Source: a virus. From it: a stretch of DNA of 62,162 nt. The notes under the pieces were generated by a model. The model had not been told where the DNA came from. It worked only from the letters and a program-made list of their open reading frames with translations, and did not search any database. How positions within the stretch are numbered: the first letter of the stretch is position 1; each line of letters begins with the position of its first letter. Below are positions 3,808-62,162 of this stretch, in pieces. A program made the translations under genes and the position numbers. The DNA lies in the IMG/VR virus record IMGVR_UViG_3300027963_002897, positions 1 to 62,162 of that record. One strand, 5' to 3'.

Positions 3808-5418
3808 TTACTCTGTGTCAACCTCGTTAACATAAATTCTACTCTTTAAAAACTCATAATGGCTAGGCATCTTTGCAATCTTTCTTTCCATTACAACTTT
3901 ATTTGCATCTAATCGTTTTTTATAAATGTCGTATGCCTTGTTCATATCGGGATATGTTCTTCCGGCGAATTCTATAAATCTGCGACCGGCAGGTATATAC
4001 CCCATGCCTGCACTGATGTACAATAATCCTGCCAACTCTATTTGGAATTCTCGATCTCCAATTTGTTTGGCAAATTCACTGTAGCCGTCATTCATTGTTT
4101 GATCTAATCCCATTAGCACTTTCGAATAGTGCATGTTTTCTGTAACATGTCGCCAATACTCTGTATCGTTTCTAGACGATAGAGCATAATGCATAGACAC
4201 AAAGTCTTTGTATCCTAGGATTTCTTTTAACGACCTAGCATTGTACACATCAATGTCAAATTGATTCATTGTACAATTTTTCATTTGGAACGTGTCAATT
4301 AATCTTAAAATTGTGTTATGTGTAGTTAACAATCCTGTAGATTCCAACGGCTCAATAAATCCATTTGACAACCCAACAGCAACAACATTCTTGATCCAAG
4401 ATTGTTTATGAACACCATGACGTATTTTGATATGCTTAAAGACCGCAGCATTTGCTCGTTCTTTATTTGGACATATCATACGATCACTGGCAAGGTGTTT
4501 TCTAAATTGTTCTTCGGCTTGCTCTTTTGTAGCAAACTTACTAGAATATACGTATCCTGTGCCAATCCTATTCCACACAGGAATGTTCCATACCCAACCG
4601 TTGTCAATTGCAGTACAATTTGTTACAGATTCAAGTTCTCGTTCTTTATCGATGTATGGAATGTGTGTAGCAATTGCACTGTCATTCATGAGTGTATCAC
4701 TGAACGAAAGGAATTCCGATCCCATAGTTTCTTCAATCAGCATGGCTTTAAATCCTGTACAGTCAATGTACAGATCTGATTTTAATTTACTGCCATTTTT
4801 TGTTAGGATATAGTCTACAGAACCGTCTTCACAAAGAGGAATGTCAACCACATCATCTACAACATGCTTAACTCCTCTTGGCTTACAATAGTGTTCTCTA
4901 AGATAACGTCCAAACAATGCCGCATCAAAATGATAAGCAGTGTCGTATCTAAATCTAAAATTTTTAAGTTCGTTAAATTTATTATCAGTCATTTTGTTGG
5001 CATTGGTCATCCAAACATTTTCGTGATAATATTCAGCAAATGTATTACATTCTATTTCCGGATTCATACCTTTTGCCAAGTACCATTCCATTAATCCAAA
5101 ATCTTTATTGTCTAAAATTAAAGTTCCGAAAGGATAATGAAACGACACCGGCTTTTCTAGACGTTCTCTAAAATCTGTAAATTTAATAGAAGTTTTGTAT
5201 GTGGCATTACAGTGTGTCATCCAGTCGCTATCTTCTAACCCGATAGCATCAAGAAATATATTAAAAGCGGCTAACGTACTTTCGCCAACACCTATAATTC
5301 CTATGTCTTCAGATTCTACTAGTGTAATATCCAAATTTGGCATTTGAGCTATAAGCCCTGCCGCTGTCATCCAGCCGGCACTCCCACCACCTACAATTGT
5401 TATGCTTTTTATTTTCAT
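3808..5418 (-). CDS. Flavin-dependent (tryptophan-type) halogenase
   Basis: 536 aa, normal length for the family. The FAD-binding GGGSAGW is at residues 10-16 and the halogenase-specific WxWxIP appears as WVWNIP near residue 285, which separates these enzymes from plain monooxygenases. Family members use FADH2, O2 and halide to chlorinate, brominate or iodinate aromatic substrates. A cyanophage halogenase (VirX1) has been characterised, so a phage context is plausible; the substrate here is unknown. A stand-alone gene inside the tRNA array with its own promoter. Confidence 0.88.
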   Translation of the reverse strand: MKIKSITIVGGGSAGWMTAAGLIAQMPNLDITLVESEDIGIIGVGESTLAAFNIFLDAIGLEDSDWMTHCNATYKTSIKFTDFRERLEKPVSFHYPFGTLILDNKDFGLMEWYLAKGMNPEIECNTFAEYYHENVWMTNANKMTDNKFNELKNFRFRYDTAYHFDAALFGRYLREHYCKPRGVKHVVDDVVDIPLCEDGSVDYILTKNGSKLKSDLYIDCTGFKAMLIEETMGSEFLSFSDTLMNDSAIATHIPYIDKERELESVTNCTAIDNGWVWNIPVWNRIGTGYVYSSKFATKEQAEEQFRKHLASDRMICPNKERANAAVFKHIKIRHGVHKQSWIKNVVAVGLSNGFIEPLESTGLLTTHNTILRLIDTFQMKNCTMNQFDIDVYNARSLKEILGYKDFVSMHYALSSRNDTEYWRHVTENMHYSKVLMGLDQTMNDGYSEFAKQIGDREFQIELAGLLYISAGMGYIPAGRRFIEFAGRTYPDMNKAYDIYKKRLDANKVVMERKIAKMPSHYEFLKSRIYVNEVDTE

Positions 5419-7406: not shown

Positions 7407-8030
7407 TTAAAGCGCACTGATAAATTTATAATACAAATCTGCTATCATTGTGTGTCCTTCTTTCGAAGGATGTCTACAAGGTAAAAACAAACGATTATCA
7501 TGTAATGAATCAAGATATGTAATTGGACCCATGCCGTCTATTGAAAAAAATCTTGTGTCGTTTGTAAAATCACTGCACATTATAGGATTTATATTTTGTA
7601 AATTCTTAATGTTTTCTGCTGTCGAATACACAAACTTGCATTTTAATTTATTCTTTAGGTATGTGTTTAGTGAAACTAGATTAGCTAGGCTAACTTCGTC
7701 TGAATAAAATCGTATGTAATAATCTTCAAACTCTTTGTATTGCGGCATTACAGTTTTAGAAAGATCGTTGCACCAGCCACGATTAATAAAACTATATTGT
7801 ACAATTACCAAATCGTTTTCTTGAATATTGTTGGATACGATATCTTGCATAACTTTACGAAAGATATGATGATTTGATCCACCTGGCCAACTTCTATTAA
7901 CAAACTCTAAATTAAGTTTGTCTGCAAGTGCAACACCAAACGAATTATCATCAATCCAGTTATCGTTGCTAGGATTTTTGGCTGTGCCAAATTTACCAAA
8001 GCTGCAAGCATATAAGAATAGTTTATCCAT
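7407..8030 (-). CDS. SGNH-hydrolase-like protein
   Basis: 207 aa. The N-terminal LFLYACSFGKFG takes the place of the GDSL nucleophile block, GGSN and the C-terminal RHPSKEGH resemble the Asn and His blocks of the SGNH/GDSL hydrolase fold, so an esterase or similar role is possible. The first block is divergent, so activity is uncertain. A perfect sigma70 promoter ends 6 bp before the start codon, which would give a leaderless mRNA. Confidence 0.6.
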   Translation of the reverse strand: MDKLFLYACSFGKFGTAKNPSNDNWIDDNSFGVALADKLNLEFVNRSWPGGSNHHIFRKVMQDIVSNNIQENDLVIVQYSFINRGWCNDLSKTVMPQYKEFEDYYIRFYSDEVSLANLVSLNTYLKNKLKCKFVYSTAENIKNLQNINPIMCSDFTNDTRFFSIDGMGPITYLDSLHDNRLFLPCRHPSKEGHTMIADLYYKFISAL

Positions 8031-8035
8031 ATGCT

Positions 8036-8064
8036 ATGATAACATAAAAAAGCAGACATGTCAA
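8036..8064 (-). promoter_or_regulatory. sigma70-type promoter abutting a start codon
   Basis: TTGACA (8059-8064), 17 bp, TATCAT (8036-8041). The expected transcription start is at or next to the ATG at 8030. Confidence 0.7.
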
Positions 8065-8084
8065 TACGCTTTAATACGATCTGA

Positions 8085-8189
8085 TTTTTCGTCCCACACA
8101 AGGGATTCCATCCTAGTCGCCGCCCGTTTGCTCCATGTTTAAAGTGCGGAGCCAGGACCTCGTTCCCTGTATATTCACACTTTGTGCTA
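8085..8189 (-). other. Possible structured RNA, unassigned
   Basis: No ORF of note. The minus strand can form an outer CAGGGA/TCCCTTG pairing and an inner GCTCC/GGAGC hairpin, with GGCGGCGACTAGGATGG between. It lies upstream of the SGNH-like gene but beyond its promoter, so it may belong to the upstream small-gene transcript. Confidence 0.3.
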
Positions 8190-8354
8190 TTAGTTTACAC
8201 TAAACGTTGGTGCTTTCGCTAACGCTTGGTGATACCGTGTAGCACGATCAAACTTATCTTGAATAAGTTTTTGAAGTTGCTCTTTTGTAAGAACTGCTTC
8301 ATAAGCCTGTTCAACGACACGTTCATTTAACTTTGTATAATCTATCTGTTTCAT
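8190..8354 (-). CDS. Small hypothetical protein
   Basis: 54 aa, starting MKQIDYTKLNERVVEQAYEA, helical, Gln/Lys-rich, no match known to me. An AAAGGA precedes the ATG. It lies directly after a terminator, so its promoter is not obvious; read-through is possible. Confidence 0.65.
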   Translation of the reverse strand: MKQIDYTKLNERVVEQAYEAVLTKEQLQKLIQDKFDRATRYHQALAKAPTFSVN

Positions 8355-8370
8355 TTTTTCCTTTATAAAA

Positions 8371-8401
8371 ACAAAAACCCTAGGGTTTTTAATCCTAGGG
8401 T
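8371..8401 (-). terminator. Rho-independent terminator
   Basis: Minus strand ACCCTAGG / CCTAGGGT hairpin (8377-8401) followed by a T-rich run; ends the transcript of the 8435-8581 gene. Confidence 0.7.
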
Positions 8402-8434
8402 CCTTGAAGTTTTGAAATGTTTCTAAGTTGTTAC

Positions 8435-8581
8435 TTAGTCATCCCATCCCTCCCGGACCCTGGTAATCTCTGTTGGTAAACGATCATTTGATAGACTATT
8501 AATCGCTAGCCAATAAGAGGGCATAAAGCCTCCCACCTGGGCTATGGATTTACAGTTTCTATGTAATGATACGTTTTGCAT
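8435..8581 (-). CDS. Small hypothetical protein
   Basis: 48 aa, starting MQNVSLHRNCKSIAQVGGFM, ending REGWDD. It has its own sigma70 promoter and terminator, which argues for an expressed mini-gene, but the function is unknown. AGAGAG sits upstream of the ATG. Confidence 0.6.
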   Translation of the reverse strand: MQNVSLHRNCKSIAQVGGFMPSYWLAINSLSNDRLPTEITRVREGWDD

Positions 8582-31840: not shown

Positions 31841-32866
31841 TTATTTTAAAAATACATCATTAATCTGTCTACCGACTTTGATAAATGTTGTACACTTTGA
31901 TAATTGTTTTAAACTTGGAGCACCGACGTATGTACAGGTACTGCGTAGTCCTCCGAGTAAATCCAATACAGTTCGAACAACAGGCCCTTTGTATAATAAC
32001 TCTACTGTTCGACCTTCTGAACTTCTATACTCTGCAACACCGCCACTGTGCTTTTCCATAGCTGTGTCTGAGCTCATTCCGTAAAATGTAATTTTATTGT
32101 CTTTAACTTCGCCCCCACCTTCATCGTGTCCGGCAAGCATACCACCTAACATTACGAAATCAGCGCCTGCCCCGAAAGCCTTAGCAACGTCCCCAGGACA
32201 AGTGCATCCGCCGTCAGCCACAATGTGTCCACCAAGACCGTGAGCGGCATCGGCACATTCAATGATAGCACTAAGCTGTGGGTAGCCCACACCAGTTTGG
32301 ATACGAGTAGTACAAACACTACCAGGGCCAATGCCCACTTTAACAATATCTGCGCCACGTAAGATTAACTCCTGTGTCATGTCTGCGGTAACCACGTTAC
32401 CTGCAATAATTGTATGGCTAGGGAACTTTGCTCTAACTTTAGCAACAAAGTCTCCAAAGTATTCACTGTATCCGTTCGCTACATCGATGCAGATAAACTT
32501 GATACTATACATCCCAGTCAATATAATATTTAATCTATCAAAATCATCATCACTGATGCCGGTACTAACTGCATAGTGTTCATGTTTTCCTTGCTTATTG
32601 AATTTGGCCCAATTATCAATGTCTGTATTATAATTCTTAACTAGGCAGGTAAACATCGAGTGTTCTTGTAATGCAAGAGCCATTTCAAATGTTCCAACAC
32701 CGTCCATGTTAGAGGCCATTACAGGAACGCCTGTCCATTCTTTTTGACTATGTTTGAATTTATACTTACGAGTAAGGTCTACGTTTTTCCTACTAGAAAG
32801 GGTAGATCTTTTTGGACGGATAAGCACATCTTTGAAGTCTAGCTTGACTTCGTCTTCGATACGCAT
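31841..32866 (-). CDS. guaC: GMP reductase
   Basis: 341 aa, typical GuaC length and lacking the CBS domains of IMP dehydrogenase. [20 protein letters not shown] carries the catalytic Cys, and [14 protein letters not shown] and [10 protein letters not shown] the substrate site. Converts GMP to IMP with NADPH, redirecting guanine nucleotides, probably for adenine-rich phage DNA synthesis. Confidence 0.93.
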
Positions 32867-38162: not shown

Positions 38163-38573
38163 TTATTTTGTTTTATTGGCTAATTCTTTATAACCATTAT
38201 AAGTCGGATGAACTGTATCCGAACTGCGTTCAACTCCTCGAGCATCGATAACCCAGTCGTTGTATTTTCGAGCAACTTCCCAAACTGCCTTGCGTTTTGT
38301 TTCTTTAATGTTTGGAATGATCCAATAAACTCGATCGGCAGTGACCAGTTGTCGCAATGTATCCAATTCTTCAAATGTGTTGATTTTTTCAGTGTCATTG
38401 CTGCCTAGACTGATGATAACATTCTTTGCTGCGGTAGCACCTTTGGTATAGAACACATGCCTATTAACATAGTCGTAACTGTTGATACCCGATTTAGCAT
38501 AGGTTACACATTCCTTACGGATCTGACCTACGCCTACTGCAAGGCTGTCGCCTAGAATCAAACATTCTAACAT
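38163..38573 (-). CDS. SGNH/GDSL hydrolase
   Basis: 136 aa. GDSLAVGVG (nucleophile Ser), ISLGSNDTE (Asn block) and DTVHPTYNGY (Asp/His) complete the SGNH triad. An esterase or deacetylase role, perhaps on polysaccharide. Start at 38573 has GGAGG; upstream ATGs at 38597 and 38645 would cross the promoter. Confidence 0.8.
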   Translation of the reverse strand: MLECLILGDSLAVGVGQIRKECVTYAKSGINSYDYVNRHVFYTKGATAAKNVIISLGSNDTEKINTFEELDTLRQLVTADRVYWIIPNIKETKRKAVWEVARKYNDWVIDARGVERSSDTVHPTYNGYKELANKTK

Positions 38574-38604
38574 TAGTCCTCCGAAAATTTCAATCATAAA
38601 ACAT

Positions 38605-38633
38605 ATTATAGCATCGTTATAAATTTTAGTCAA
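38605..38633 (-). promoter_or_regulatory. sigma70-type promoter
   Basis: TTGACT (38628-38633), 17 bp, TATAAT (38605-38610), for the SGNH hydrolase. Confidence 0.8.
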
Positions 38634-38638
38634 GAAAA

Positions 38639-38657
38639 AGCCCACCGAAGTGGGCCT
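38639..38657 (-). terminator. Rho-independent terminator after pqqA
   Basis: Minus GGCCCAC TTCG GTGGGCT followed by TTTTTC. Confidence 0.8.
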
Positions 38658-38676: not shown

Positions 38677-38748
38677 TTACTTGTTCATTACATACATAGT
38701 TACTTCAAAACCAAAGCGCATTTCTGTAGCTGCTGGTGTTGTCCACAT
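38677..38748 (-). CDS. pqqA: PqqA, precursor peptide of pyrroloquinoline quinone
   Basis: 23 aa: MWTTPAATEMRFGFEVTMYV then MNK. Matches short PqqA peptides of Pseudomonas/methylotroph type (MW-T/K-x-P ... R-x-G-F-E-V-T-x-Y), with Glu15 and Tyr19 in the E-x3-Y spacing that PqqE cross-links to form PQQ. GAGGAG lies 7 bp before the ATG; its own promoter, 130-nt leader and terminator show a dedicated transcript. No pqqB-E here, so host enzymes would process it. PQQ is the cofactor of methanol and other quinoprotein dehydrogenases. Confidence 0.88.
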   Translation of the reverse strand: MWTTPAATEMRFGFEVTMYVMNK

Positions 38749-38973: not shown

Positions 38974-39984
38974 TTATCTTGTACCCGATTTTTCTATTAA
39001 GTTGTCTTTAAATATTTGCCAAGCACGTTCCCAAGTCCAACGACTGCTGCCTTCTAATACTCGATTACGGTCAAGTAACAATGCAGAGTCAACGGCCTGC
39101 TTTAGATCTTCGTTCATACAGCCAGTAATACCTTCATCCACTACATCTAATGGACCTTGGCATGGATATGCAGCCACTGGAGTGCCACAGGCCATGGCTT
39201 CAATCATGACTAGTCCGAACGTTTCCCAACGACTAGGGAACACAAAGCAATCTGCCATGGCAAAGTATTTGGCTAGTTCTTCACCACGCTTGGCTCCTAC
39301 AAATTTTACATCAGGATACTGTGCCTTATACTCTTCCAGCATAGGACCATCGCCTACCATGAACTTGACACCCTCGTAAGGCATTTCAAAAAACGCTTCT
39401 AAGTTCTTTTCTTTACTTACACGGCTAACGCATACTAATATAGGACCATTTACCACTGTGCCAGTACGCTGACTTGGATTAAATATAGCACGGTCAACAC
39501 CGCGTGTCCATGGAATAACATCTCCATCGAATCCGTGGGCTTGTAATTCTTTAACCATGGTGTCGGTAGTGGTCAACACCTTGCCTGCGTGTTTGTGGAA
39601 CCAGCGTACTAGAGGCCAAGTAAGTGCCTCAGGGATTCCAAATAGGGCTCTAAGTCCTTCAGGGAACTTAGTATGATAAGCAGTATTGTACCGAAGATTA
39701 TGTTTTGAAAGATATTTTCTAGCAGACAGACCAACAGGACCCTCTGTGGCAATATGGTAATAATCCGCACCTGCCGCCTCAATCTTCTTGCCCATCTGCC
39801 TGGTAAGGGCAATCTTGACTTCGTTGTAGCCAGGACAATCAAAGTAGCGGAAGTCCCCGGGAGTAATGTAAACAACGCTATAACCATCCAGAACCGCACA
39901 AGCCTCGATGTTTTTGTAAGTTGTGACAACGCCATTGATCTGCTCCGGTAAGTTATCTGTAATAATTAAAATCTTTTTTGTCAT
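38974..39984 (-). CDS. agt: GT4 glycosyltransferase, Agt-like
   Basis: 336 aa. N-terminal ITDNLPEQINGVVTTYKN, central LVCVSRVSKEKNLEAFFEMP, and the E-x7-E motif in ETFGLVMIEAMACGTPVAAY mark a retaining GT-B family 4 enzyme. The opening resembles enzymes that glycosylate diacylglycerol or mannose lipids. With the PlcP-like gene two genes upstream it matches the plcP-agt pair that swaps phospholipid for glycolipid. Overlaps the upstream ATP-grasp gene by 4 bp. Confidence 0.82.
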   Translation of the reverse strand: MTKKILIITDNLPEQINGVVTTYKNIEACAVLDGYSVVYITPGDFRYFDCPGYNEVKIALTRQMGKKIEAAGADYYHIATEGPVGLSARKYLSKHNLRYNTAYHTKFPEGLRALFGIPEALTWPLVRWFHKHAGKVLTTTDTMVKELQAHGFDGDVIPWTRGVDRAIFNPSQRTGTVVNGPILVCVSRVSKEKNLEAFFEMPYEGVKFMVGDGPMLEEYKAQYPDVKFVGAKRGEELAKYFAMADCFVFPSRWETFGLVMIEAMACGTPVAAYPCQGPLDVVDEGITGCMNEDLKQAVDSALLLDRNRVLEGSSRWTWERAWQIFKDNLIEKSGTR

Positions 39985-40871
39985 TGAATCTTTAACTTTA
40001 TAAAATCTACAATACGCTGTGCCATATCCTGCCCACAGTACCGGTCCATACCTTCAAATCCTGGACTTGAATTAGCTTCACATATCTTGTAGCCGTCCTT
40101 ATCAAACAACAAGTCAACTCCTGCTATTTGTAGACCTAGCACACGAGCTGTTTCTCTTGCAAGATAATCCACTTCGTCTGTTATCTCAAACAGTTCAGCA
40201 GTGCCGCCTTGACTGATGTTGGCACGAAAATCGCCCTCAACACCTATACGTTTCATTGCCACTACACTTTTGCCACCAATGACCCACACACGCAGATCAG
40301 TACCAGGCTGTGCATCCACAAACTCCTGTATGATCATGGTTTTCTTTAGGCTGATACTGCTCAACAAACTCATAAGGCTTACAAAGTCTTTTTTGGTTTG
40401 GCATAGGTGTACTGTCTTGCCTTTGCTACCGCTGGTGGCTTTGACCACACAGGGAAACCCTATTTCTTTTTCAATAAGCTCGATGTCAACATCACCGTTG
40501 ACCAGTATGGTTTTTGGGATTGGCAAGTTCTCTTTGACCAACAACTGGCTGGTTAGTAACTTGTCTGATACACGACTTATGCTGTCGGCATCGTTGATCA
40601 CAGGTATACCAAACTTTTCAATTTGACGCATTACCGAACGTGTAAAATAGTTGGTGCCTGCACCTGTTCTGCTTAAGACTAGGTCAGGTAATTCAATTTT
40701 TTCGCCTTTGTATCGTATACTCTTGGCACTGCTACGACTGACAATAATGTCAAAATATTTGGGTTCAAGAACTTGTCCACGCAAGCCGTTCTTTTTTAAA
40801 CATGCCAATAATTGTTGATTTTCGTATGCATCAATATTTGAAGCATAGTGCAATATCCATACTTGTTTCAT
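39981..40871 (-). CDS. RimK-like ATP-grasp ligase
   Basis: 296 aa. ATP-grasp elements: FPCVVKATSGSKGKTVHLCQ, QEFVDAQPGTDLRVWVIGGK, and the metal-binding end KICEANSSPGFEGMDRY. RimK-type enzymes add glutamate or other amino acids to proteins or small molecules. Between plcP- and agt-like genes it may act on a lipid head group or protein; this is inference. Confidence 0.85.
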   Translation of the reverse strand: MKQVWILHYASNIDAYENQQLLACLKKNGLRGQVLEPKYFDIIVSRSSAKSIRYKGEKIELPDLVLSRTGAGTNYFTRSVMRQIEKFGIPVINDADSISRVSDKLLTSQLLVKENLPIPKTILVNGDVDIELIEKEIGFPCVVKATSGSKGKTVHLCQTKKDFVSLMSLLSSISLKKTMIIQEFVDAQPGTDLRVWVIGGKSVVAMKRIGVEGDFRANISQGGTAELFEITDEVDYLARETARVLGLQIAGVDLLFDKDGYKICEANSSPGFEGMDRYCGQDMAQRIVDFIKLKIQ

Positions 40872-41023
40872 TACTCAGCCGTTTCTTCAAAGTTTTCGTC
40901 GATTTCTAAATCAAAATCTTCAGGTAGGTCTTCTTCGTCTATGGGTGCTACTACTTCAGTCTGAGTAGGTGGGTTAAAAGCACTGAACCAAGCCAACGGA
41001 TTGAAAATATTAAACCACATCAT
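40871..41023 (-). CDS. Small acidic protein
   Basis: 50 aa, starting MMWFNIFNPLAWFSAFNPPT, with an aromatic, membrane-associating start and a strongly acidic tail. AAGGAG upstream; TAATG overlap with the ATP-grasp gene. May be an accessory of the lipid-modification operon. Confidence 0.62.
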   Translation of the reverse strand: MMWFNIFNPLAWFSAFNPPTQTEVVAPIDEEDLPEDFDLEIDENFEETAE

Positions 41024-41771
41024 CTTTCTCCTTTGTCCATGTAATTATCTCCCAGACTCCATCATGGTGCTCAACTAAGGCTGTGCATGACTCTACCCAA
41101 TCCCCGTCATTCATATAGATGATGCCGTCTATGGTTTTTATTTCAGCGTGATGAATGTGTCCACATATCACACCATCATAGCCACGCTTCTTGCAGTAGC
41201 CTGCTAGATTTTTTTCGAATTGAAACATAAAGTCACTGGCCTTCTTGACTCTATGCTTGAGATATTTACTAAGGCTCCAGTACCCGAAGCCTAATTTATG
41301 TCGTATCCAATTAAACTTGCTGTTCCAGTCTAACACTAGGTCGTATAACTTATCACCCAGAAATGCAAGCCAAGGAGCAAGACGAGTAATACCGTCAAAT
41401 AAATCACCATGTGTAACCAAATAGTGTTTGCCATCTGCACCTATATGTTCTGTTTGATTTTGTATCTCAATAAGACCAAATGAAAAACCATAAGGTATCA
41501 TTGGTCTTAAGAATTCGTCGTGATTGCCGGCGACGAATACCACTCGTGTGCCACGCTTGGCGTGTCCTAGTACACGGCGTACTACGTTGGTGTGCGATTG
41601 TTTCCAACGCCATTTGTTTTGTTGGATCTTCCAGGCATCAATGATATCACCAACGAGGTAGAGAGTGTCGCATGAATTATGCTTGAGAAAATTATTGAGC
41701 TGTTCCGCCTTGCAGTCTTTTGTACCTAAGTGGACGTCACTCACAAAAATACTACGGTAAGTTTTTTGCAT
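41010..41771 (-). CDS. plcP: PlcP-like metallophosphoesterase (phospholipase C)
   Basis: 253 aa. Motifs SDVHLGTKDCKAEQL, LVGDIIDAWKI, GNHDEF, THGDLFDG and GVICGHIHHAEI, ending NDGDWVESCTALVEHHDG. This is the COG2908 branch that includes LpxH relatives and PlcP, the Mn-dependent enzyme that cuts phospholipids to diacylglycerol in phosphate-starved bacteria. Linkage to a GT4 gene favours PlcP over LpxH. TAAATATT 4 bp before the ATG. Confidence 0.82.
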   Translation of the reverse strand: MQKTYRSIFVSDVHLGTKDCKAEQLNNFLKHNSCDTLYLVGDIIDAWKIQQNKWRWKQSHTNVVRRVLGHAKRGTRVVFVAGNHDEFLRPMIPYGFSFGLIEIQNQTEHIGADGKHYLVTHGDLFDGITRLAPWLAFLGDKLYDLVLDWNSKFNWIRHKLGFGYWSLSKYLKHRVKKASDFMFQFEKNLAGYCKKRGYDGVICGHIHHAEIKTIDGIIYMNDGDWVESCTALVEHHDGVWEIITWTKEKDDVV

Positions 41772-41823
41772 AGCAATATTTACCGTAGTATCGCTGTTTA
41801 AAGATTACGTTTGTGTTACGAAA

Positions 41824-41982
41824 CTAAATCCTTACTAGTACCCACTTAGCTGTAAATGGTTTACCTTCGGCCTTATGTTTCAGTATCTTAGCGAACTCTT
41901 TTTTACGAAGTTCGGAAACCGTTTCTGTATCATGGTCGACGCAAGCCCTGTACAGTTTAGCTAATAGCTTTTTCTGTTTCAT
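41824..41982 (-). CDS. Small basic hypothetical protein
   Basis: 52 aa, starting MKQKKLLAKLYRACVDHDTE. Helical and Lys-rich. A strong AAGGAGG lies 8 bp upstream of the ATG. Not recognised. Confidence 0.7.
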   Translation of the reverse strand: MKQKKLLAKLYRACVDHDTETVSELRKKEFAKILKHKAEGKPFTAKWVLVRI

Positions 41983-42006: not shown

Positions 42007-42513
42007 TTAACTGTTTAATACCTTTGCAACACTATTCATTACACTGGCAATACGACCAATGTCACGAAGCTGTTCTACTGTGTAGCCTTCTGTCTTTAGA
42101 GTTTCGTAATGTGCTTTAACACAGAAATGACACTTGCCCACAATACTAGCTGCCAAACTAAATGCTTCAAAGTTTGATTTAGTAGTTCCACCGTGACTAG
42201 CAATAGCATTCATACGTAAGCCAGCTGGTAGGCCTTTTAGAGCAGGATCATCAGCCATTTCGACATATGGATACCATACATTGTTCTGTGCCATAATGCT
42301 TGCGGCAGTCATTGCTGACTCTGCATACACCGGAGCATCTGCTAACAAGATGCTTAATACCTTACCGTTACCAGTTGCAGCCAATGCGGCTACAGCACAA
42401 CCCATAGCAACATCAGCATCTAATGTACTACGCAAAAGAACAGCATCAAGATTTAACTTGGTGTCCTTTGCGTAGTCTGGCAACGCTTCTTTGATAGCGT
42501 CATTGAATGCCAT
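42007..42513 (-). CDS. ahpD: AhpD-type alkyl hydroperoxidase
   Basis: 168 aa. The redox pair CHFC near residue 130 with downstream His (KAHYET) is the AhpD/CMD active site; the MNAIASHGGTTKSNFEAFSL helix also fits. Works with the adjacent peroxiredoxin (1-bp overlap) to remove peroxides. Confidence 0.92.
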   Translation of the reverse strand: MAFNDAIKEALPDYAKDTKLNLDAVLLRSTLDADVAMGCAVAALAATGNGKVLSILLADAPVYAESAMTAASIMAQNNVWYPYVEMADDPALKGLPAGLRMNAIASHGGTTKSNFEAFSLAASIVGKCHFCVKAHYETLKTEGYTVEQLRDIGRIASVMNSVAKVLNS

Positions 42514-43070
42514 TATAGTGTCTCTCCACCAACTGTACGGTTACAAGCGCAAAGCTCGCCAGTTTGTAGCGCATCTAATACACGAAGTGTTTCTTCTGGG
42601 CTACGACCAACGTTCAAGTTGTTAACAGTTACGTGTTGGATAACGTTCTCTGGATCAACGATGAATGTTGCGCGAAGTGCGGCACCTGCTGGAGCGTAGA
42701 ACACACCAAGCTGTTCGATCAAGCTCAAGTTGTCGCCAGTTTCTGGATTGTAACGCTGTGTGTCAGCAAATTGTGTGTGAGTAATTTTCTTTAAATCAGC
42801 GTGGGCATTTTGCCAGCTAACTTTACAGAACTCGTTGTCTGTTGAACCTGTGAGCAATACAGCGTCACGGTCAGCAAAGTCACCTGCTAGTTTGTCATAG
42901 GCTACAATTTCTGTAGGGCAAACGAATGTGAAATCCTTTGGATAGTAAACGATTACTTTCCACTTGCCAGCAAATGACTCATCTGTAATTTCAAAGAAAG
43001 CATCTTCTGGCTGTCCTGGCTTAACTCCAGTAACTGCGAATTTTTCTAATTTATGTCCAACTGTTTTCAT
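42513..43070 (-). CDS. ahpC: Peroxiredoxin (AhpC-type)
   Basis: 185 aa. DFTFVCPTEIVAYDKL contains the peroxidatic Cys; GELCACNRTVGGETL near the end gives a candidate resolving Cys. With AhpD it forms a peroxide-defence pair, which may protect the phage RNR and host during infection. Promoter-like TTGATT...TATAAT lies upstream near 43125-43155. Confidence 0.92.
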   Translation of the reverse strand: MKTVGHKLEKFAVTGVKPGQPEDAFFEITDESFAGKWKVIVYYPKDFTFVCPTEIVAYDKLAGDFADRDAVLLTGSTDNEFCKVSWQNAHADLKKITHTQFADTQRYNPETGDNLSLIEQLGVFYAPAGAALRATFIVDPENVIQHVTVNNLNVGRSPEETLRVLDALQTGELCACNRTVGGETL

Positions 43071-43808: not shown

Positions 43809-43881
43809 TTTTAATTCCTTTTATAATAATGACTTAACGTCATTAAACAGTATATAGCGTATTGCTGATAAAAGTCAAGAA

Positions 43882-43904
43882 AAAGCGGCATTTTAAGCCG
43901 CTTT
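43882..43904 (-). terminator. Terminator after tmRNA
   Basis: AAAGCGGC / GCCGCTTT hairpin followed on the minus strand by TTTTTC. Confidence 0.8.
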
Positions 43905-43906
43905 TT

Positions 43907-44210
43907 GGTGGTTTCTGTTACGAGGTATATCCTACCCTAAGCAGTGTTTAGGCTGCTAATGCGTATTCGCTTGAGTTTGCGTTTACTTGTTTTACGCTGA
44001 TAACGTCAGTCGTCTCTCGTGTTGCCGTCTCTACTATCTACCCCTGTCGAAACCATGGCAGGCCCATTATGAAGTATACTCACGTTTCTGATGTCTCTGT
44101 TGGCTATGTGCCAACCGAATATACTTTATGGTGGACCTGGCGGGAGTCGAACCCGCGTCCAGAAGTCCTTCGCTTTGAAGGGATTACAACAATTCTTTTA
44201 TTTAACCAAC
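43907..44210 (-). ncRNA. ssrA: Circularly permuted (two-piece) tmRNA
   Basis: The acceptor piece comes first: T-arm GCGGG TTCGACT CCCGC and CAGGTCC-A-CCA, ending at 44129. After a 63-nt spacer the coding piece starts at 44065 with GGGCCTGCCATGGTTTCGAC. The two pair as GGGCCTG/CAGGTCC with G3-U70, the alanine identity pair. The tag frame 43980-43948 reads GCA...TAA, giving ANSSEYALAA. tmRNA rescues stalled ribosomes and tags products for Clp proteolysis. Directly follows cspA, so likely co-transcribed. Confidence 0.93.
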
Positions 44211-44414
44211 TTACGCTGGATAAATGTTTGCAGCCTGCTTGCCTTTGGGGCCTTGCACAACTTCAAAACTTACGTTTTGATTTTCTTGCAAGACTTTAAA
44301 ACCTGAAGTCTGAATTGCAGAGTAATGAGCAAATAAATCCTCACCACCTTCGTCTGGAGTAATAAACCCAAAACCTTTGGTTTCATTAAACCATTTTACT
44401 TTACCTGTTGCCAT
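44211..44414 (-). CDS. cspA: Cold-shock protein
   Basis: 67 aa. [20 protein letters not shown] and DLFAHYSAI hold the RNP1 and RNP2 RNA-binding motifs. An RNA chaperone that opens mRNA structure. Its stop abuts the tmRNA acceptor piece, so one transcript probably carries both; a TTGACA box is near 44489. Confidence 0.95.
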
Positions 44415-61860: not shown

Positions 61861-62162
61861 TTATGTGCGTAGGTTGGCTAGACCTACTAGTCTAAACAGG
61901 CCTAACCACATCCAGCCTATGTCAAATTCAAACCAACGGCGGCTTAACTTAACACTTGCAGGATTGAGATGATGGTTATTGTGAAGCTCCTCACCGCCCA
62001 CAACAATACCCCAAGGAATAATATTGCGGCTGTGATCATTGCTAGTTCCGTTCTTATATCCATACCAATGTCCTATTCCATTAATAACACCTGCGGCCCA
62101 GAATGGGATCCATATCATTTGAATACCCCACACTACCAGTCCCCACGGTCCAAAGAGCAAGC
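61861..62162 (-). CDS. Fatty-acid desaturase, C-terminal part (cut by window edge)
   Basis: About 99 residues visible. GEELHNNHHLNPAS is the third histidine box of membrane acyl-CoA/acyl-lipid desaturases and lies between membrane segments; the N-terminal boxes are beyond the window. It would introduce double bonds into membrane lipids, in line with the phage plcP/agt-like genes. Confidence 0.85.
   Translation of the reverse strand, partial: LLFGPWGLVVWGIQMIWIPFWAAGVINGIGHWYGYKNGTSNDHSRNIIPWGIVVGGEELHNNHHLNPASVKLSRRWFEFDIGWMWLGLFRLVGLANLRT

Follow-up and report, generated by a model that had tools for sequence, protein, structure and literature searches.

A viral operon pairing a PlcP-type phosphoesterase with an Agt-like glycosyltransferase, predicted to remodel host lipids under phosphate starvation

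The stretch of DNA analyzed here, hereafter the window, is a virus fragment of 62,162 nucleotides (62 kb) from IMG/VR, whose ORF list contains four minus-strand ORFs forming a cassette (Table 1). The gene order described in an earlier note made from the sequence alone, i.e. plcP, a small acidic protein, an ATP-grasp enzyme, and agt, was confirmed, and its outer ends (41771 and 38974) are exact. From plcP to the GT4 gene, successive ORFs share 14, 1, and 4 nt, an arrangement seen in translationally coupled operons. A family scan identified Metallophos in plcP, RimK ATP-grasp (159 bits) in the third gene and GT4/Glycos_transf_1 (80/77 bits) in the last, and no family in the 50-aa peptide. When compared with six relatives, all four ORFs look protein-coding and constrained, with closest-pair dN/dS values of ∼0.04 for plcP, ∼0.03 for the ATP-grasp gene, 0.2 for the GT4 gene, and 0.4 for the acidic peptide (overall range of the latter 0.07-0.4). 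A stem-loop with a T run, located beyond the GT4 gene, is the probable transcript end of the cassette. The desaturase previously listed in support of a lipid theme is real, although cut by the window end. This fragment scores 22 bits with PF00487, under the cut-off, and its tail (HNNHH...ANLRT/AKLRT) is identical in type to that of complete phage desaturases, but it lies 20 kb from the cassette and is not part of it.

Table 1. Features of the cassette and its surroundings (positions in the window)
Feature	Position	Strand	Evidence
plcP-like metallophosphoesterase, predicted phospholipase C, 253 aa	41010..41771	-	SDVH, GDI, GNHD, HGD, GHIH motifs; grouping with bacterial PlcP
50-aa peptide with WF-rich hydrophobic N terminus and acidic C-terminal tail, last residue Glu	40871..41023	-	homologues and constraint
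RimK-type ATP-grasp ligase, 296 aa	39981..40871	-	TIGR00768 score; 7QYR match; constraint
Agt-like GT4, predicted diacylglycerol glycosyltransferase, 336 aa	38974..39984	-	GTcp residues; bacterial homologues adjoining plcP
Pho-box-like direct repeat CGTAACACAAACGTAAT, weak copy of the motif preceding phage plcP/pstS	41804..41820	-	comparison of relatives
52-aa ORF directly upstream of plcP, kept in many relatives	41824..41982	-	before plcP in 26/59 GT4 loci
Stem-loop GCCCACTTCGGTGGGC with a downstream T run	38640..38655	-	sequence
Fatty-acid desaturase, C-terminal part, truncated by window end; outside operon	61861..62160	-	PF00487

In bacteria, PlcP yields diacylglycerol (DAG) from phospholipids, Agt glycosylates this DAG, and both genes respond to phosphate starvation (PMC4796936, PMC8528852, PMC8231724). 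They are known to occur in the same operon behind a Pho box (PMC4796936, PMC8528852). The phosphoesterase of the window is ∼50-60% identical to bacterial PlcP, its best bacterial relative reaching 61%. A large record of Sinorhizobium meliloti contains a single homologue, 47% identical to the window protein and presumably corresponding to the PlcP known from this species. The metal-binding motifs SDxH, GNHD, HGD, and GHIH are intact in 112/112 phage sequences. Homologues 53% identical to the phage protein are also found on three Pseudomonas aeruginosa plasmids (NZ_CP137508.1, CP075839.1, and NZ_CP042268.1).

Databases name such proteins UDP-2,3-diacylglucosamine diphosphatase, i.e. LpxH, which would make this a cassette producing or editing lipid A/LPS. 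LpxH shares the calcineurin-like superfamily and metal-binding motifs with the phage protein, and the LpxH models do return weak scores. However, these scores are far under both family cut-offs (47.2 versus 134 bits for NF003743 and 34.3 versus 190.35 bits for TIGR01854), and solved LpxH chains match at a mere 24 bits. GNHD is present in all 112 phage sequences and in 69/70 bacterial PlcP, whereas all 21 LpxH sampled have GNRD; likewise, PlcP has GHIH where LpxH has GHTH. The phage proteins cluster in a single clade (support 97-98) adjacent to bacterial PlcP in trees built from 95 and 96 sequences, and LpxH is separated with full support in both, on a branch of ∼4 changes per column in the drawn tree. 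An AU test did not reject the constraint placing phage proteins and LpxH on one side (p = 0.89), this constraint being equal, with LpxH as outgroup, to phage PlcP as sister to bacterial PlcP. The trees are thus compatible with phage PlcP either nested within bacterial PlcP or sister to it. Finally, the two genes co-exist. Among Gammaproteobacteria, 51/56 genomes have an LpxH above cut-off, and about a dozen of these same genomes carry a separate PlcP scoring <50 bits with the LpxH model. In Alphaproteobacteria, LpxH passes its cut-off in 0/96 genomes and PlcP is found in 70/190. Distance, motif, and co-occurrence all set the phosphoesterase apart from LpxH, and the reading of the earlier note thus withstood its own check against LpxH. 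We rejected an LpxH identity on the basis of the model scores, GNHD, the separate branch, and the presence of both genes within the same genomes, and a lipid A/LPS cassette is hardly credible. The protein is PlcP-type, with a predicted phospholipase C activity.

The GT4 enzyme was compared with GTcp from SAR11, in which Ala changes of G16, G82, G85, H104, R163, R190, K195, D256, T257, F258, G259, E264, or W320 abolish activity, and in which T162 lies within the modeled DAG site (PMC8231724). The window GT4 keeps all these residues, including H104, R163, and W320 of the DAG site, with the sole exception of D256, which is conservatively replaced by Glu (E254). This pattern is nearly invariant across 74 phage GT4 sequences, position 256 being Glu in 73/74 of them and Asp in 55/56 bacterial sequences. 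In GTcp, D256E causes the loss of >90% of activity, and MshA carries Glu at the equivalent position (PMC8231724). Because MshA has Glu there, we view this replacement as a reason for caution rather than as a refutation of a role in DAG glycosylation. In a search blind to plcP, 33 of the 47 bacterial genomes with a match to the window GT4 encode this homologue immediately behind plcP and in the same orientation (counted by hand). The enzyme is thus predicted to be an Agt-like DAG glycosyltransferase.

PlcP relatives are encoded on at least 599 IMG/VR contigs, and synteny was analyzed in the closest 80, one of which is a contig of 525 kb. In 76/80 of these viral loci, a glycosyltransferase is encoded within the next two genes after plcP, belonging to GT4 in 30 loci and to the GT2 family in 46. 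Starting from the GT4 instead, plcP is found just before it in all 55 new viral loci with upstream sequence, these loci being the closest ones and partly redundant; the remaining 4 of the 59 loci start inside or at the GT4 gene. In bacteria, a GT4 is encoded behind plcP in at least 49/75 loci. Given these counts, the gene order in the cassette is not due to chance. Desaturases are encoded within six genes of plcP in up to 17 of the 80 closest viral loci. In one relative (L104), the gene right behind plcP, ATP-grasp, and GT4 (7880-8485, minus strand) has a weak match to Mpo1-like 2-hydroxy fatty acid dioxygenases (20.3 bits, cut-off 24) and is perhaps a further lipid gene.

The region in front of plcP contains a Pho-box-like element. 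The direct repeat GT[CA]A-N7-GT[CA]A is present in 45/109 of the last-100-nt regions before plcP versus 25/1600 control windows, almost only at a period of 11 and on the sense strand. A stricter version (GT[CA]AY-N6-GT[CA]AY), expected at 0.002 per region under a first-order model, is found before 44/114 viral plcP and 6/6 phage pstS genes, as compared with 9/1962 unlabeled genes and 0/76 GT4 genes. This same motif, GTAAY half-sites included, precedes 13/19 bacterial pstS genes (background 54/1200). Some plcP genes have textbook Pho boxes, such as TTGTCACATATTTGTCAT in L072 and TTGTCACTAATTTGTCAC in L076. In most plcP regions with a box, TAAATA follows the repeat at exactly 11 or 21 nt. The layout is that of a PhoB box, with half-sites of about 7 nt at an 11-nt period in front of a -10 element. 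No box is present in 67/111 plcP regions, in many of them because plcP lies inside a longer operon. In the window, a weaker form of the repeat (CGTAAC/CGTAAT) occupies the conserved position and is followed by GATACT 11 nt on (41787-41792) and by TAAATA 21 nt on (41777-41782). Plain E. coli Pho-box scoring of the window alone finds no box (best score 11 of 18), and the repeat is visible only across relatives. The weak window copy and the plcP regions lacking a box count against PhoB control, as does the frequent failure of PhoB to bind boxes predicted in phages (PMC10976474). Judged by the comparison of relatives, the viral plcP operon is apparently under the control of the host phosphate-starvation regulator PhoB, whose binding is predicted.

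Seven of the viral loci (L048, L069, L071, L157, L159, L160, and L170) encode pstS near plcP, and each complete pstS among them has a Pho-box-like repeat just upstream. The identity of phage PstS was confirmed by model score (397.8 bits, cut-off 339). Its closest bacterial relative (76%) is in a genome, G400, whose own PlcP is nearest to that of the Burkholderiales bacterium Mitsuaria (78%). The window itself encodes a complete permuted two-piece tmRNA of betaproteobacterial type (43857-44242, minus strand; RF01850 154 bits, RF04321 141 bits; tag ANSSEYALAA). The Burkholderiales-like relatives of PstS/PlcP agree with this tmRNA type, and the hosts appear to be betaproteobacteria. Two-piece tmRNAs are known in aquatic phages (PMC9004378). 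In four loci (L044, L073, L076, and L080), an Ala/Glu/Val-rich protein of family C46 is encoded behind plcP-GT2, and its gene has its own Pho-box-like repeat in 4/4 cases, the strict motif included; a phage phosphate regulon may thus have a further, new member in this gene. At the plcP start in the window (41771-41783) and in relatives, no more than 5-6 nt separate the end of the TAAATA element from the start codon. This element may be a T4-type late promoter, which would leave the transcript almost without a leader. A Pho-like repeat was also seen in front of a GDSL-type gene (38163-38645), as a single period-11 match in the window. Since it is absent before the corresponding genes of relatives and located at the end of a PqqA-like ORF, it was dropped.

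The ATP-grasp enzyme belongs to the RimK-family α-L-glutamate ligases, as assessed by its TIGR00768 score (213.9 bits, cut-off 143.4), a full-length ATP-grasp fold, and an EANSSPGF motif. Its best solved relatives are RimK-type ligases, with a match of 164 bits to the α-L-glutamate ligase 7QYR. Unlike characterized members, it scores below all equivalog cut-offs, including that for ribosomal S6 glutamate ligase RimK (NF007764, 160.7 versus 331 bits), and it is placed in a lipid operon. It is strongly constrained (dN ∼0.04 and dS at least 0.6 among six relatives). The earlier note regarded its presence as unusual and suggested that it could make an aminoacylated or other lipid. No ATP-grasp gene adjoins any of the 75 bacterial plcP loci, on which ground we rejected it as a component of the bacterial operon, and its closest alphaproteobacterial relatives (38-40% identity) adjoin unrelated genes. 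In the viral loci it proved to be an optional insert outside the fixed core, and nothing linking it to a lipid was found. Homologues of the acidic peptide are confined to six contigs near the window (L094-L099), always between plcP and the ATP-grasp gene.

Whether this ligase glutamylates a protein, either the acidic peptide or ribosomal protein S6, with no role in lipid chemistry, is in our view evenly balanced. Acidic tails are what RimK and LysX modify, and the tail of the peptide, ending in Glu, resembles such substrates. The family assignment and nearest structures of the ligase are those of RimK-type enzymes, the peptide occurs only alongside the ligase, and relatives of the ligase exist in phages with no plcP nearby (L108, L109, and L113). 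On the other hand, the peptide is missing from 10 of the 16 plcP-linked ATP-grasp loci. Moreover, the ligase gene directly follows plcP (or plcP and the peptide) in 16/21 viral relatives and lies between plcP and a glycosyltransferase of either type in 14/21, a constant position that favors a connection with the pathway. Taurine amide provides a precedent for an amidated glucuronosyl lipid, although a literature search on this point gave nothing useful. A broader proposal, in which phages run their own small phosphate regulon (plcP-GT, pstS, and others) via host PhoB and the ligase makes an amino-acid-amidated glycolipid, e.g. on glucuronosyl-DAG, replacing acidic phospholipid, is tentative and rather doubtful.

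Taken together, these findings make it probable that this phage operon carries out phosphate-starvation lipid remodeling under host PhoB control, converting phospholipid to DAG and then to glycolipid. The correspondence to the bacterial pair acting under phosphate stress, noted earlier, is supported by the residues, the synteny, and the Pho-box-like element, the activities being predicted. In an infected cell short of phosphate, active host PhoB would bind the Pho-box-like repeat and switch on plcP and the downstream genes. PlcP would split host phospholipid by a phospholipase C-type reaction into DAG and a phospho-alcohol. Because PlcP releases a phospho-alcohol, host phosphatases would have to finish the job by freeing its phosphate. 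The glycosyltransferase, an Agt-like GT4 here and a GT2 in other phages, would move a sugar from a UDP-sugar onto DAG, and the resulting phosphorus-free glycolipid would keep the membrane intact while the freed phosphorus feeds phage DNA. In a subset of phages, the RimK-type ligase would modify an acceptor with an amino acid, probably glutamate. This model builds on the identities of the genes, their catalytic residues and order in the operon, their conservation across many phages, and a Pho-box-like motif also found at phage pstS; the activities, PhoB binding, the benefit to the phage, and the role of the ligase are what it predicts.

It could be argued that the glycolipid mainly alters the membrane or surface, hindering superinfecting phages, resisting antimicrobials, or providing membrane lipid, with phosphate release being incidental. 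Indeed, PlcP has a glycosyltransferase as its fixed partner, desaturases are encoded near many cassettes, and lipid changes in the membrane have been reported to affect phage adsorption (PMC9804370, citing unpublished data of its authors). The Pho-box-like control common to phage pstS points instead to phosphate supply. Such a promoter favors phosphate economy over receptor masking, and we consider a primarily surface-directed purpose quite unlikely.

The cassette resembles the PlcP-Agt operons of Phaeobacter MED193 and SAR11 HTCC7211 (PMC4796936) and P. aeruginosa (PA3219-PA3218, PMC8528852), with a GT4 harboring DAG-glycosyltransferase residues directly behind PlcP and a Pho-box-like element in front. 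It differs by being phage-borne, by the optional insertion of a RimK-type ATP-grasp and an acidic peptide, by the use of GT2 in place of GT4 in many phages, and by Glu for Asp256. Phosphorus genes of phages under host PhoBR, such as cyanophage pstS (PMC10976474), similarly have a Pho-box-like promoter, beside or close to pstS, but the target here would be membrane phospholipid rather than uptake, and the hosts are apparently betaproteobacteria. plcP is absent from a published overview covering 17 kinds of phosphorus genes in phages (PMC10987575), and no description of plcP as a viral auxiliary metabolic gene was found in the open-licence literature searched. A study of Lake Baikal viruses lists lpxH together with stearoyl-CoA desaturase (PMC9611531). 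In the cultured Pelagibacter phage Mosig, plcP is named UDP-2,3-diacylglucosamine hydrolase and adjoins a phosphate ABC transporter gene; the paper on this genome does not discuss the plcP-type gene. The lpxH naming in viral annotations is a likely reason why phage plcP went unnoticed. These findings suggest that large freshwater phages carrying this gene pair can strip phosphorus from the membranes of their hosts. If true, membrane lipid joins the phosphorus sources mined by viruses, beside the known phage phosphate-uptake genes, and infection would alter the lipids of phosphate-limited freshwater bacteria, thereby influencing grazing, the adsorption of phages, and phosphorus cycling. This would also explain phage genes labeled lpxH in databases.

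Several other genes of the window were identified. Just behind the GT4 gene, a PqqA-like peptide of 23 aa (MWTTPAATEMRFGFEVTMYVMNK, with an EVTMY motif) is encoded at 38677-38748 (minus strand), and similar peptides are found in >12 relatives; PqqA has been reported in a Baikal phage of methylotrophs (PMC7678222). An ahpD-ahpC peroxide-defence pair (42007-43070, minus strand) lies just upstream of the cassette, and is near plcP in a number of relatives. The minus strand also encodes a tryptophan-halogenase-like protein (3808-5418; phrog_2928, 492 bits) and a GMP reductase scoring above its equivalog cut-off (31841-32866; 550.6 bits), and 23 tRNA genes are located at the start of the window.
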